Assembly: GCA_021108185.1 (NCBI GenBank)
Contig: JAIORJ010000133.1
Location: 1-64,000 of the forward strand
Direction: 5' to 3'
DNA: 64,000 nucleotides
Source: Methanococcoides sp.
GTDB taxonomy: Archaea; Halobacteriota; Methanosarcinia; Methanosarcinales; Methanosarcinaceae
The notes under the pieces were generated by a model. The model was not told the origin of the DNA, ran no database searches, and saw only the letters and a list, made by a program, of their open reading frames with translations. The stretch's first letter is position 1. Each line of letters begins with the position of its first letter. Of the stretch, positions 49,445 to 62,009 are shown piece after piece. The position numbers were made by a program, and so were the translations under genes.

Positions 49445-50623
49445 TTATTCATCCCCCATATGGATCACTTTTGCGTTAGAGACCGATTCATTAACAAGAG
49501 CTTCAATATCCACTTTTTCTTCTTCTTTGACAATGGAACCAAATGTTGCTTTCACCTCTGGGTGAACAGGAACAGCACCACAGCCTGAAGTTGGCATTAT
49601 CGAAATATCATAGGAACCAATGCGTCTGGCAATATCGATTATTTCGGTTTTGTCAAGCCCTATGAGAGGATGATAAAGCGGGATTCCCAGACCATATATC
49701 TCAGCGTGCATATTAGCAGCGGTCTGTGAAGCCACCTGACCGATGGACGAACCTGTGATAATACCATCAGCATTCTCTTTTTTCATAATTTCATATGCCA
49801 TACGATACATTGTGCGTTTACAGAGAAGACAGGTATTCTTCACAATACACTTCTTCATGAACTCGTCAAGGTTCTTTCCATGAGGGACCTCATACATTTT
49901 CATATGATCCGCAGGAGACCATTTTTGAAGCAGTTCAACAGCTTTGATCGCACGTTCAAGTGCTCTCTCATCAGAAAAAGGTATATTGTTCGCATACACC
50001 GGGATAACCTTCACACCACGCTTCATCATAAGCCATGCTGCAACCGGAGAATCAATACCTCCTGACATCAAAACAACCATCGTACCCTGACTACCAAGCG
50101 GAAGACCACCCACACCTTTGACAATATCTGTAAAAACATAGGCTTTGTTCTGCCTCATTTCAACGGAGATCTCACGATCAGGATCTGAAAGGTCCACCTT
50201 AGGAGTTTTTCCAATCGATTCAAGCCGGGTCCAGACCGCATCCCCGCATAATCTGCCAATGTCCGTGGAAGAAGGACCTTCTTTTCCCACACGACGTGCA
50301 CGAATTCCGAAGGACTCGCCTTCATTTATAATATCGGCACCAATATCGGCACAAAGCTTTGCAGCTTCATCAACATCAGACTCTATAATTTTAGCAGCCG
50401 ATGTGGAAACAACACCAAAGACATCCGCGGCTGCTATTGCAGCTTCCGGGTCATCAGAAGTAATGAAGATACGACCCCATTCACGATGAACTCTGGAAAA
50501 AGATACGTTTTTCTGCCTCAACATAGCTTCAAGGTTCCGTACAAGGATCCTTTCATAGAGATTCCTGACACCCGGACTCTTGAGTGCTAGTTCTCCATAC
50601 CTTACAATAACCACATCGAACAT
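49445..50623 (-). CDS. thiI: tRNA 4-thiouridine synthase-type protein (ThiI)
   Basis: A 392-residue ThiI. The N-terminal ferredoxin-like and THUMP domains (about 1-165, with YGELALKSPGVRNLYERILV) bind tRNA. A PP-loop domain starts VVLMSGGIDSPVAAWLMMKR, with SGGIDS at 187-192. Cys pairs in CIVKNTCLLCK and TSGCGAVP could hold a cluster or carry sulfur. The C-terminal rhodanese domain of E. coli ThiI is absent, as usual in methanogens. It makes 4-thiouridine at tRNA position 8. The upstream ribosome binding site is weak. Confidence 0.9.
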   Translation of the reverse strand: MFDVVIVRYGELALKSPGVRNLYERILVRNLEAMLRQKNVSFSRVHREWGRIFITSDDPEAAIAAADVFGVVSTSAAKIIESDVDEAAKLCADIGADIINEGESFGIRARRVGKEGPSSTDIGRLCGDAVWTRLESIGKTPKVDLSDPDREISVEMRQNKAYVFTDIVKGVGGLPLGSQGTMVVLMSGGIDSPVAAWLMMKRGVKVIPVYANNIPFSDERALERAIKAVELLQKWSPADHMKMYEVPHGKNLDEFMKKCIVKNTCLLCKRTMYRMAYEIMKKENADGIITGSSIGQVASQTAANMHAEIYGLGIPLYHPLIGLDKTEIIDIARRIGSYDISIMPTSGCGAVPVHPEVKATFGSIVKEEEKVDIEALVNESVSNAKVIHMGDE

Positions 50624-55722: not shown

Positions 55723-57726
55723 TCACTTCCTGCCATTCAACATGGCAGAAAGGATCTTGTCCGAATATTTCAGCACCACACATCCATCAGTGCATTTCCC
55801 ACAGCGTATACACGAATCATTTATGTATAACCTGCCTTTTTCCGAACCCAGTTCTATGGCATTTACAGGACAGACCTTCAAACATATCCCGCATTCAGTG
55901 CACTTACTTGCACGCAAAAGTTGCTTAGCGGTCGCTTCAAGGCAGGAATGCGCATCTTCTTTGGAATTCGCTGTGACCTTCAAACTGCCTGATGAAAAGA
56001 ATTTCACAGTTCCGGAATCCATTTTAAGGAGGACCATTCCGAGCTCTTCAGAAAAGACAGTTGAGCCCAGCATGTTCAGAATCGCAGAAGCTTCGCTGAC
56101 AAGTACACCTTTGACACTTGCCTCCACAGTAAAGCCACCTTCCCTGCATGGTGAAAAACCAGATGTCAACGTAATATCGAAATCGTCAATTACACTGGAA
56201 GGTTCGGTCTCAATACCAAGTTCGCTCGCAAGTTTTAGCATTTTAGGAGGAAGTTCCTTCCAGCGCCACATACCGTGCCGCACATATTCATCAGAAAGGC
56301 CTTTAGACTTTGCCCATTTCAAAAGGAAACTGTTCCATCGATCATAGATAGAAGGATGGAGATCTTTCAGCCTTTCATACTCAGCAGAAAGTTCCGCAGG
56401 ACAAAGGTAGCAGCCCACCCGTTCATAACCAACATCATAGAGTGGATTATAATCGAGCTTTCTCCAATGGATATAAAGCCATACCTCAATGGCACGCCAA
56501 TCACGAATAGGGAATATGTTCAACTGGTTCGGAACAAAGGGGTTCTTTTCGCTGGCAGAGATATTTGACCTGGAAAATGATTCAAATTTACGCTTCCCAT
56601 CAATGGTCAAACATACACCCCCATCCTCGCTGCATTGATCAATGATAGCACCCGCAGGCCCAAGTTTACAAACCTTGCAGCACCACCGGAAATCCTTTGC
56701 AGGAGGACCAAAGCTCTCAAGATTCTCCCAAAAGGCATTTTCAGCTTTTGATTCAATAAGTTCGATACCCCTTTTTTCGCAATGAGAATGAACAAATTCT
56801 ACGGTTTCAGGGAATTCGATACCGGTATTAAGGAAAAAGGCCCTTACATCCCTGCCTTTCAGGGCACTTAGGGTAAGGTCAAGAACAACAAGGCTATCTT
56901 TTCCACCACTGAATGAAACATGCACAGGAAGTTTGCGGTGCTCCTTCTGGCTCGCAATTCCTTTGATAGTATTCATTGCGTTCTTACCAATTTTTCGCAG
57001 GTGAGGAAGATTAGCTGTAATGGCATCTTCGAGGGTTGCTACCCTGGAGCTTAACTTTAGGTCACTACTGGAGATCTTCCGAACCCTTAACACAGGACCA
57101 TCTGCAGTTGCCATATTATCGCCATCTACAAGTGATATCCCGACCCCTACGAGATTACCGGACACAACTATCACAGGGTCCCCTGTTTTTATGTCATTGG
57201 TAGAACTTTCGATCAATTCAGAACTTACCTTTTTTCCGTTCAGATGCATTTTGGTCTTTTTCAGAGTAACGGTCCTGCTTTCGACCATACCATGAAGTAC
57301 CTGTGCCCCTGCCTCTGACATCTCGAAGCGGTGTTCCATCAGGGACATATCAAAAAGAAGAGTACCGATGTTCAGACCGTCCACTATGACCTGAGCGGTC
57401 TTGTCCTCCCCGGAGATCTTGTTCAACAGGACCAGCCTTTCCCCCAGAGGATCACGGCCAAATTCAGAAAGCAAAAGCTTACCTAGAAGTTCACGTTCAT
57501 ACGGTGAACAGAATCTTATGTCGCCAGGCCCGGATAGCTTAATTTCAAAGATCTCGCCTTCGCAGACGCCACACTTCTTATCGAGAAGGGGAACATTGCA
57601 ATCTTTACACCAGTATATATGAGATGGCTCGTTAGACACCGGATTCCTTGAATGCTTCTTTTTATCAACTACACCTTTTCTTGAAGGCATCTTGTGAATT
57701 CGGGCATCGCTCTTTTTCAAATGCAT
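55723..57726 (-). CDS. PP-loop (PAPS-reductase-like) protein with zinc ribbon, PUA-like and ferredoxin domains
   Basis: A 667-residue fusion. Near the N-terminus a zinc ribbon (CKDC and CGVC, about 40-55) is followed by a PUA-like RNA-binding region with TGDPVIVVSGNLVGVGISLV (about 180-200). The PAPS-reductase-type PP-loop HVSFSGGKDSLVVLDLTLSA follows at about 270, with CCKVC and CYLCPAE cysteines. The C-terminus is a 2[4Fe-4S] ferredoxin (CTECGICLKVCP and CIRCGKCTDGCV). PUA plus PP-loop suggests RNA thiolation rather than sulfate reduction, but this is inference. An ATG three codons in is likelier than the TTG before it. Confidence 0.82.
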   Translation of the reverse strand: MHLKKSDARIHKMPSRKGVVDKKKHSRNPVSNEPSHIYWCKDCNVPLLDKKCGVCEGEIFEIKLSGPGDIRFCSPYERELLGKLLLSEFGRDPLGERLVLLNKISGEDKTAQVIVDGLNIGTLLFDMSLMEHRFEMSEAGAQVLHGMVESRTVTLKKTKMHLNGKKVSSELIESSTNDIKTGDPVIVVSGNLVGVGISLVDGDNMATADGPVLRVRKISSSDLKLSSRVATLEDAITANLPHLRKIGKNAMNTIKGIASQKEHRKLPVHVSFSGGKDSLVVLDLTLSALKGRDVRAFFLNTGIEFPETVEFVHSHCEKRGIELIESKAENAFWENLESFGPPAKDFRWCCKVCKLGPAGAIIDQCSEDGGVCLTIDGKRKFESFSRSNISASEKNPFVPNQLNIFPIRDWRAIEVWLYIHWRKLDYNPLYDVGYERVGCYLCPAELSAEYERLKDLHPSIYDRWNSFLLKWAKSKGLSDEYVRHGMWRWKELPPKMLKLASELGIETEPSSVIDDFDITLTSGFSPCREGGFTVEASVKGVLVSEASAILNMLGSTVFSEELGMVLLKMDSGTVKFFSSGSLKVTANSKEDAHSCLEATAKQLLRASKCTECGICLKVCPVNAIELGSEKGRLYINDSCIRCGKCTDGCVVLKYSDKILSAMLNGRK

Positions 57727-57786
57727 TGAATTCAAGAATAGAATAGGCAGGTATTAAATACTTCCATATGGTCAGAAGCAAAATAT

Positions 57787-60524: not shown

Positions 60525-60822
60525 TCATACTGAAATCAGCATCATCCCATCCCACTAGTGTGAGATACATCCCCTTCATTGCCACAATGCTATTTAATCT
60601 TTTCGCCGCATTGCCCATGAAAGCGACAAATGTGAACATAATGACGATCAAAATGAACAAAGGACAGATGGAATTGCAGATTACGGATGAAGTTGTGAAG
60701 GAAGAACAGAGAGAATCGTAGAAAAATAACAGAAAAGACGGAACAAAAGAAAAAAATGGGGCAGCTTGTATCGAAGATCGATCTTGCTGACGCCCGTATT
60801 ATCCAATATACAGATATCGGAA

Positions 60823-62009
60823 TTAGAAAGTATCAAGTTCGCCTTTGACCACCATATCAGTGATCTTGGTGATGTTCTCAAGCCAGTCGTCAATGACCAC
60901 TTCTGCTTCAGACCTGATGGCAGCAAAGTTCGCACCATCTTCAGGGATGACCTGTGCACTTGCCACGAGTGGCTGAGAGAGAGAAGCTTGATATGAACAT
61001 CGCTTACTTCATCAACAGCACTGACAACATCCCTTGCCATCTGTGTAGAAAGCAGGTTGTAGATCTTACCAATGTGGTTGATCGGGTTCTTTCCGCTTGT
61101 TGCTTCCATGCTCATTGGCCTGCTTGGAGTGATAAGACCGTTGCTTCTGTTCCCACGTCCTACTGAACCATCATCACCCATTTCAGCAGATGTACCTGTA
61201 ACGGTAAGGAAAACGCAGTCACAGCCACCATCGACCTTATCAGCAGCATTGATGCGGGCTGAAACTGTCCTGTCGGTGTACTTGGTAGCAAGATCAAGAA
61301 CGTACTCGGTCATCTCTTCCTTTGCATTTATGTAGTGGTCCATGTCATCGATGTGCCTGCCGACCATACCACAGCAGATGGTAAGAGAGATATCATCGTT
61401 CTCCCTGAGACCCATGACCTTTATATCTTCCCCGATTCCAGGGATCTTCTTTTTCTTAAGGTCTGTCAAAAGTTGCCTCTCGGTGTTGTAGACGACCTGT
61501 TCAAGTTCAGAGAAAGGAGCATGGCCCACACCGAATGAGGTATCGTTCGCCATTGGAACATGGTCCCTGGTGAAAACATCCCTGAGATCAGAAGAACCTG
61601 TACCAAGCTTGCAATCAATGATCATATCACGCTCAAGGTCCATAGCAGGAATGGTGTTACGAACATATTCACGTGCAGCCTGGAGGGCAACTGCCTCTGC
61701 AGGGATCTCCATACCATCGAATTCCATGGTAGCCCTTCCGACAAGAAGAGTGTATATAGGCTTGAGGACCTCACCGCCTCCGAATTCAGGACGGGACCTT
61801 CCTGCAACGATCTGGGTCTCATCAGTGTTGTGGTGAAGGATAGCTCCACACTTGTCAATGTATTCTTTACAAAGAGCGCGGCTCACAGCTTCTGCGAGAC
61901 CATCACTGATACTGTCCGGATGACCTATACCTTTCCTTTCAACAAGCTCGGTCTCCTGTTTTTCGATAGGAGTCTCATGGAGATGTTCCACTTTGATATT
62001 TCGGATCAT
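60823..62009 (-). pseudogene. mat: S-adenosylmethionine synthetase (archaeal MAT), frameshifted near the C-terminus
   Basis: An archaeal-type methionine adenosyltransferase making SAM from methionine and ATP. The frame is normal from MIRNIKVEHLHETPIEKQE through ERKGIGHPDSISDGLAEAVS, TRDHVPMANDTSFGVGHAPF and [17 protein letters not shown], to DVHIKLLS near residue 340. There it slips at a GAGAGAGAGA repeat (about 60975-60984), and as written continues in a wrong frame to 60681. The family C-terminus (VASAQVIPEDGANF, ending KGELDTF) is present in another frame and stops at 60823. About seven loop residues before QPLVAS are also missing. The start ATG follows AAAGAGGC. It is a real mutation or a sequence error; see findings. 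Confidence 0.85.

Follow-up and report, generated by a model that had tools for sequence, protein, structure and literature searches.

A PUA-bearing relative of BrxP in methanogenic archaea as a candidate RNA sulfurtransferase

We analysed a PRK13795-family protein encoded by a Methanococcoides sp. within a window of 64,000 nucleotides (the whole stretch of DNA studied), and we propose that it is probably a housekeeping archaeal BrxP-like sulfurtransferase that acts on RNA and most likely thiolates a tRNA or rRNA base. The protein combines a PUA domain of the RNA-binding type with kinship to BrxP, which sulfurates DNA, and would therefore probably add sulfur to RNA. A first-pass annotation had suggested an iron-sulfur-dependent RNA sulfuration or related modification enzyme, and this suggestion is supported by the PUA domain, an ATP-type PP-loop, a fusion to a cysteine desulfurase in orthologues and the relationship with BrxP, RNA being the predicted substrate; computation established the domain content and how conserved it is, the fusion, and the relationship with BrxP. 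The family already has catalogue entries, and published discussion has treated it as a reductase. Its links with BrxP and with the desulfurase appear to be new; a literature search, which omitted most subscription journals, returned nothing tying the family to PUA, BrxP or RNA sulfuration. Most methanogen genomes in which the family was detected contain two copies, presumed to reduce PAPS, and the ATP sulfurylases needed to supply such a reaction are missing from the majority of those genomes. If RNA sulfuration is true, many methanogens and ANME archaea would have their annotation for sulfate assimilation corrected, and the BREX-4 phosphorothioation enzyme would gain a housekeeping RNA-modifying relative.

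The gene, its relatives in the genome and its domains

The open reading frame is real and intact, and its ATG at 57726 is the start that had been annotated. A TTG located 9 bases upstream extends the frame to 55723-57735 (-), 670 amino acids, and residues are numbered here from this TTG. NCBIfam NF010366 covers the protein from end to end (1107.8 bits against a curated cut-off of 745), and we found no difference between the protein and the PRK13795 family (NCBIfam NF010366-NF010369). As the corresponding equivalog, PRK13795.1-1, is named 'hypothetical protein', membership tells no function; PMC6286981 annotates PRK13795-type proteins as putative APS/PAPS reductases. Orthologues in Methanococcoides seepicolus and M. 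alaskense are 95-97% identical to the window protein. The same genome encodes a second member with the same architecture, of 657 amino acids (PRK13795.1-3; 1168.8 bits against NF010368; L003:868-2838, G000:C8). Directly upstream of this paralogue lies a gene whose product carries, at its C-terminus, a cysteine cluster similar to that of Cas4/Dna2-type nucleases, and a similar neighbour was seen at 5 loci related to it. The genome further encodes a TtuA/NcsA homologue (L005) and a canonical CysH (L001), whose operon also contains CysD and a sulfite-reductase-like gene. This CysD (L001:488-1396) itself carries CC and CxxC, placed similarly to the cluster cysteines found in the PP-loop family. 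The annotated distinction from ThiI holds as well: no THUMP family figures among the Pfam matches of the window protein, so that the NFLD-THUMP N-terminus of ThiI is missing, and a separate ThiI-like gene lies within the window at 49445-50623.

Every part previously named, that is, a zinc ribbon, a PUA-like region, an SGGKDS PP-loop, cysteine clusters and a 2[4Fe-4S] domain, is present in this one protein; the earlier list had omitted the alpha/beta domain containing C530, a domain resembling the C2 domain of archaeosine tRNA-guanine transglycosylase (ArcTGT), and the basic tail (Table 1). The full-length AlphaFold2 model, built from an alignment of 60 sequences, has a mean pLDDT of 89.5 and a pTM of 0.86. 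The tail, which counts 10 K+R against 3 D+E over residues 1-36, is longer in Methanosarcina. Among 60 homologues, the zinc-ribbon cysteines C43, C55 and C58 are found in all 60 and C46 in 59. The C2-like region gave a profile match to residues 471-579 of ArcTGT 1iq8 and Foldseek matches to 1iq8 and 1j2b, and Pfam TGT_C2 was detected in 2/60 homologues (best 2.5e-4).

Since the Pfam PUA match of the window protein alone fell below threshold (2.8e-4, 21.2 bits, cut-off 24.8), we assayed the domain in three further ways: by Pfam in relatives, by profile against the PDB and by structure. The Pfam match is clear in the paralogue (1.1e-20) and in 20 of the 60 homologues (best 5.7e-22). A profile of the N-terminal region retrieved PUA proteins from the PDB, including ArcTGT across both C2 and PUA. 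A separate N-terminal model (pLDDT 94.1) was matched by Foldseek to 1j2b (an ArcTGT-tRNA complex), NSun6, Nip7, MCT-1 and Cbf5, the PUA-fold matches including 3d79, 1q7h, 1j2b and 5zvd. The PUA reading, for which structure prediction had been named as a check, thus stands; judging from these models, the N-terminal module is a PUA domain of the RNA-binding type, and it is predicted to bind RNA.

In the remainder of the protein, the PP-loop domain gave Foldseek matches to APS/PAPS reductases (at the top), TtuA and NcsA. C530 is near-invariant (51/55 homologues), and the eight cysteines of the ferredoxin domain (Pfam, residues 608-652) are each conserved in 52 or more homologues among those covering the position. 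The order of the domains is kept across Methanosarcinales, Methanomassiliicoccales, Methanothrix, Methanoperedens, Methanomethylicota and Nezhaarchaeota, a conservation that far exceeds chance.

Table 1. Features of the gene in the window.
Feature	Coordinates	Strand	Basis
Whole gene	55723..57726	-	ATG start, 667 aa; PRK13795.1-1 / NF010366
Basic disordered N-terminal tail	57628..57726	-	Residues 1-31 with pLDDT <50
Zinc ribbon C43-x2-C46 ... C55-x2-C58	57532..57624	-	Cysteine conservation
ArcTGT C2-like (pre-PUA) domain, residues 69-150	57286..57531	-	Pfam, profile, Foldseek
PUA domain, residues 151-228	57052..57285	-	Pfam in relatives, Foldseek
PP-loop (PAPS_reduct) domain, residues 235-507	56215..57033	-	Pfam 6e-43 (272-447), Foldseek
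PP-loop motif SGGKDS, residues 276-281, ATP type	56893..56910	-	SGGxDS in 60/60
C352-C353, motif RWCC, predicted [4Fe-4S] ligands of the PP-loop domain	56677..56682	-	60/60
C442-x2-C445, predicted ligands of the same cluster	56401..56412	-	60/60
Alpha/beta domain, residues 511-606, motif SP-C530-x2-GG	55918..56205	-	AlphaFold2 model; BrxP hhalign spans region
C-terminal 2[4Fe-4S] ferredoxin domain	55768..55917	-	Fer4_10 2.7e-7

Relationship with BrxP and fusion to a cysteine desulfurase

We compared the family with enzymes of DNA sulfuration. Among the PADLOC models, BrxP matched the window family best (4.8e-52), followed by DndC (1.3e-13) and SspD (1.3e-12). Alignment of profiles with hhalign gave E=3e-62 over 396 columns against BrxP, spanning the PP-loop, alpha/beta and ferredoxin regions, as compared with E=5.5e-24 over 177 columns, confined to the PP-loop, against CysH; the BrxP and CysH profiles are small (7 and 3 sequences, respectively). 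Reciprocally, the two BrxP proteins tested gave PRK13795 models as their top NCBIfam matches (1e-51 and 1e-58), far above CysH, and the best plasmid tblastn matches of the family were BrxP-type genes lying beside pglZ and brxL (Methanosphaera) or beside DUF4007 and an aminotransferase-V gene (Treponema). In a phylogenetic tree the window family forms one group (87/97), apart from CysH; AU tests at 0.05 reject no grouping (family with BrxP, p 0.13; family with CysH, p 0.076; others likewise). As the deep order of the tree is thereby left undecided, kinship to BrxP rests on the profile scores and on the shared architecture, and BrxP is, by these sequence comparisons, the closest relative found.

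In BREX type 4, DNA phosphorothioation is carried out by BrxP, which stands in for the methyltransferase; what its additional alpha/beta and ferredoxin parts do has been described as unclear (PMC12839542). Both proteins possess an SGGKDS PP-loop, an alpha/beta region and a 2[4Fe-4S] ferredoxin whose cysteines align, but BrxP lacks the PUA domain, is often fused to DUF4007, and is encoded in BREX loci alongside PglZ, BrxL or BrxC and a desulfurase, which is not the case for the window gene. The window protein also fell short of the full-length BrxP profile, scoring 175.2 bits over BrxP positions 95-367, whereas true BrxP, found separately in 4/158 genomes, scores 756-1003 bits. DndC and SspD are PP-loop [4Fe-4S] sulfurtransferases, as the family is proposed to be, and are paired with a cysteine desulfurase; their similarity is weaker (about 46-49 bits), and they differ by their DNA substrate, their other partners and the lack of a PUA domain. 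Massilia DndC has RWCT where the window family has RWCC.

Bona fide BrxP proteins were observed in the same phylum (L137-L140, in genomes G107, G073, G091 and G074), and at least 3 of these genomes also carry the housekeeping family. On the Treponema saccharophilum plasmid pTS1, a BrxP gene (L127:8614-10305) is missing from the gene table of the plasmid collection, and its product keeps a zinc ribbon as in the archaeal family, which the other BrxP proteins examined lack. The 18-kb plasmid II of Methanobacterium congolense encodes a BrxP-like protein of 381 amino acids (L128:4965-6110) composed of a PP-loop and a ferredoxin, with neither zinc ribbon nor PUA and with no recognisable BREX genes nearby.

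A search for domain fusions, which the first-pass annotation had called for, revealed a SufS-type cysteine desulfurase fused to the Methanomicrobia orthologues. In these proteins (L036, L038 and L043), the PP-loop domain is followed by the desulfurase, which replaces the alpha/beta domain. The PP-loop and a class-V aminotransferase/SufS domain share a single open frame in at least 24 Methanomicrobia genomes out of 61 family-bearing ones, and in one genome (G086, C2:317410-319937) the two genes are adjacent and separate, being fused in related genomes. The desulfurase of L036 matched TIGR01979 (sufS) at 5e-122; the fused domain also matches the PADLOC models of SspA and DndA. All 3 fused desulfurases examined preserve the PLP-lysine motif SGHK as well as the catalytic-cysteine motif, and the fused forms fall within the subfamily of the window protein itself. 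A C-terminal cysteine desulfurase domain had been noticed earlier in PMC6286981, the reductase reading being retained there. Such a desulfurase would pass on sulfur derived from cysteine, for which a sulfate reductase would have no use.

Alternative explanations

The reductase reading has real points in its favour. Like CysH, the window protein has a PAPS_reduct fold with CC and CxxC cysteines; this APS-reductase-type ligand set (C352, C353, C442, C445) is present in all 60 homologues, the Pfam PAPS_reduct match is strong (Table 1) and the best Foldseek matches are APS/PAPS reductases. In a ferredoxin-dependent APS/PAPS reductase, the fused ferredoxin would stand in for thioredoxin as well as for the ECGLH cysteine, with the PUA domain being vestigial or structural. 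We retain this rival because homologues in M. jannaschii are reported to reduce APS or PAPS, as related in PMC6286981 and PMC10322725, which cite a 2011 paper and a 2013 thesis. In PMC6286981, the label of putative APS/PAPS reductase rests on phylogenetic grouping with the M. jannaschii proteins, and its authors remark that many genomes are without genes supplying APS or PAPS; Jespersen et al. (PMC10322725) call for more biochemistry as well. In our own searches, PRK08557 exceeded its cut-off in one control genome. Against the reductase reading, the ECGLH catalytic cysteine occurs in none of the 60 homologues, whereas the CysH of the same genome has it; the loop is of the ATP type, SGGxDS, in all 60, as opposed to SGAEDV in that CysH; and the PUA domain, zinc ribbon, alpha/beta domain and ferredoxin are additions to the CysH plan, and the PUA is retained. 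Among 61 family-bearing genomes, picked for strong family matches and searched for two ATP-sulfurylase types while APS might come otherwise, Sat (PF01747) was above cut-off in 9, CysD in 7 others and neither in 45. The ECGLH-bearing CysH, standing in its operon with CysD and the sulfite-reductase-like gene, and the fusion to a desulfurase, which would make no sense in a reductase, argue in the same direction. On the strength of the loop type, the missing ECGLH, the mostly missing ATP sulfurylase, the separate CysH and the fusion, we rejected an assimilatory PAPS/APS reductase as the main reading, and the ferredoxin-dependent version appears to us quite unlikely. The earlier statement that this is not a true PAPS reductase is supported by the motifs, by the fusion and by BrxP being the closest relative found.

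Other alternatives keep the sulfur transfer and change its target. The protein might perform the chemistry of BrxP, in which sulfur takes the place of a non-bridging phosphate oxygen, on the backbone of an RNA chosen by the C2-PUA module: the closest relative found comes from a DNA-phosphorothioation system (PMC12839542), and the module added to it is a PUA of the RNA-binding type. However, no natural RNA phosphorothioate is established, and the partners of BrxP (BrxC and others) were not found near the window gene. To our knowledge, the PUA-bearing modification enzymes known so far target bases. For E. coli, yeast, human cells and mouse brain, RNA phosphorothioates once claimed in bacteria and eukaryotes have been disproved, and the abstract of that work names no archaea (PMC8597057). 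We consider RNA-backbone phosphorothioation unlikely. Doubtful, too, is the joint proposal that the family makes natural RNA backbone phosphorothioates and that the BREX-4 DNA-phosphorothioation enzyme derives from an archaeal RNA-modifying family; the PRK13795 family would in any case be a well-defined place in which to seek such RNAs. A cofactor of methanogens or another small molecule, rather than a nucleic acid, could receive the sulfur, as suggested by the strong association of the family with methanogens and by LarE, a PP-loop enzyme that sulfurates small molecules (PMC9283937). The C2-PUA module and the basic tail speak against this, as does the presence of the family in Methanomethylicota, Nezhaarchaeota and an Aenigmatarchaeota MAG, making it very improbable. 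We hold it hardly credible that the protein modifies DNA or belongs to a defence system as a BREX-4-like phosphorothioation enzyme: the similarity to BrxP, DndC and SspD would fit, but the family occurs in every Methanosarcinaceae genome sampled, its recurrent neighbours include no BREX, Dnd or Ssp genes, true BrxP is a separate protein, and the extra domain, a PUA, is of the RNA type.

Proposed mechanism, candidate targets and distribution

For the favoured reading, RNA base thiolation, we propose that the basic tail, the zinc ribbon and the ArcTGT-like C2-PUA module would dock the RNA, most likely a tRNA, and that the SGGKDS domain would bind ATP and adenylate an RNA oxygen, which would most likely be a base carbonyl. 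AMP would then be displaced by sulfur carried on a cysteine or at the iron-sulfur cluster. Mobilising or reducing the sulfur may, in the window form, be the task of the ferredoxin and of the alpha/beta domain with its C530; in the Methanomicrobia orthologues, the fused SufS-type desulfurase would take the place of both.

The window protein shares with TtuA and NcsA an ATP-type SGGxDS PP-loop and an Fe-S cluster, and Foldseek matched it to 5b4e and 6scy, but it belongs to another Pfam family, ATP_bind_3 scoring 15.3 bits on it against a cut-off of 27. With ArcTGT it shares C2 followed by PUA in the same order; the catalytic domains are unrelated, and in the window protein the C2-PUA module is N-terminal. 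We know of no characterised RNA thiolase in the PAPS_reduct family. In NcsA, three cysteines bind the cluster, leaving an iron site free for sulfur (PMC10067955), whereas the window family has four invariant cysteines in the PP-loop domain, as in APS reductases, which fits the thiolase reading awkwardly.

Several archaeal tRNA thiolations could be accounted for by an RNA-sulfurating PRK13795 family if this activity is true. In the passages on them in PMC7668247, s2C17 of M. maripaludis and P. furiosus and s2U33 of M. maripaludis tRNA-Leu(UAG) stand without an assigned enzyme, and PMC5372739 gives the archaeal s2C32 enzyme as 'to be determined'. These three modifications are candidate targets of the family.

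We analysed the distribution of the family by searching genomes with a PP-loop alignment. All 42 Methanosarcinaceae genomes in the sample contained the family, 41 of them giving at least two matches, the first candidates of each genome being scored so that missing matches do not prove absence; BrxP itself probably accounts for some of the additional matches. An earlier search with a full-length profile scored 4 candidates per genome, apparently often ferredoxins, and its weak rows and absences were discarded for that reason. The genes that recur beside the family in Methanosarcinaceae are SudAB-type genes, a permease, an acylphosphatase, ThrRS (13 loci) and ThiI (6 loci); PglZ, BrxL, BrxC, desulfurase and DUF4007 genes are not among them. 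A defence gene was rejected as an interpretation, the family being present in all 42 genomes beside ordinary genes, and the viral contigs searched yielded no relatives. Neighbours differ in other lineages; the neighbourhood is lineage-specific and a weak guide to function.

Elsewhere in the window, a methionine adenosyltransferase-like open reading frame at 60681-62009 (-) diverges from a plausible MAT after 'DVHIKLLS'; its final ~110 residues resemble a shifted frame, which may reflect an assembly error or a genuine frameshift.
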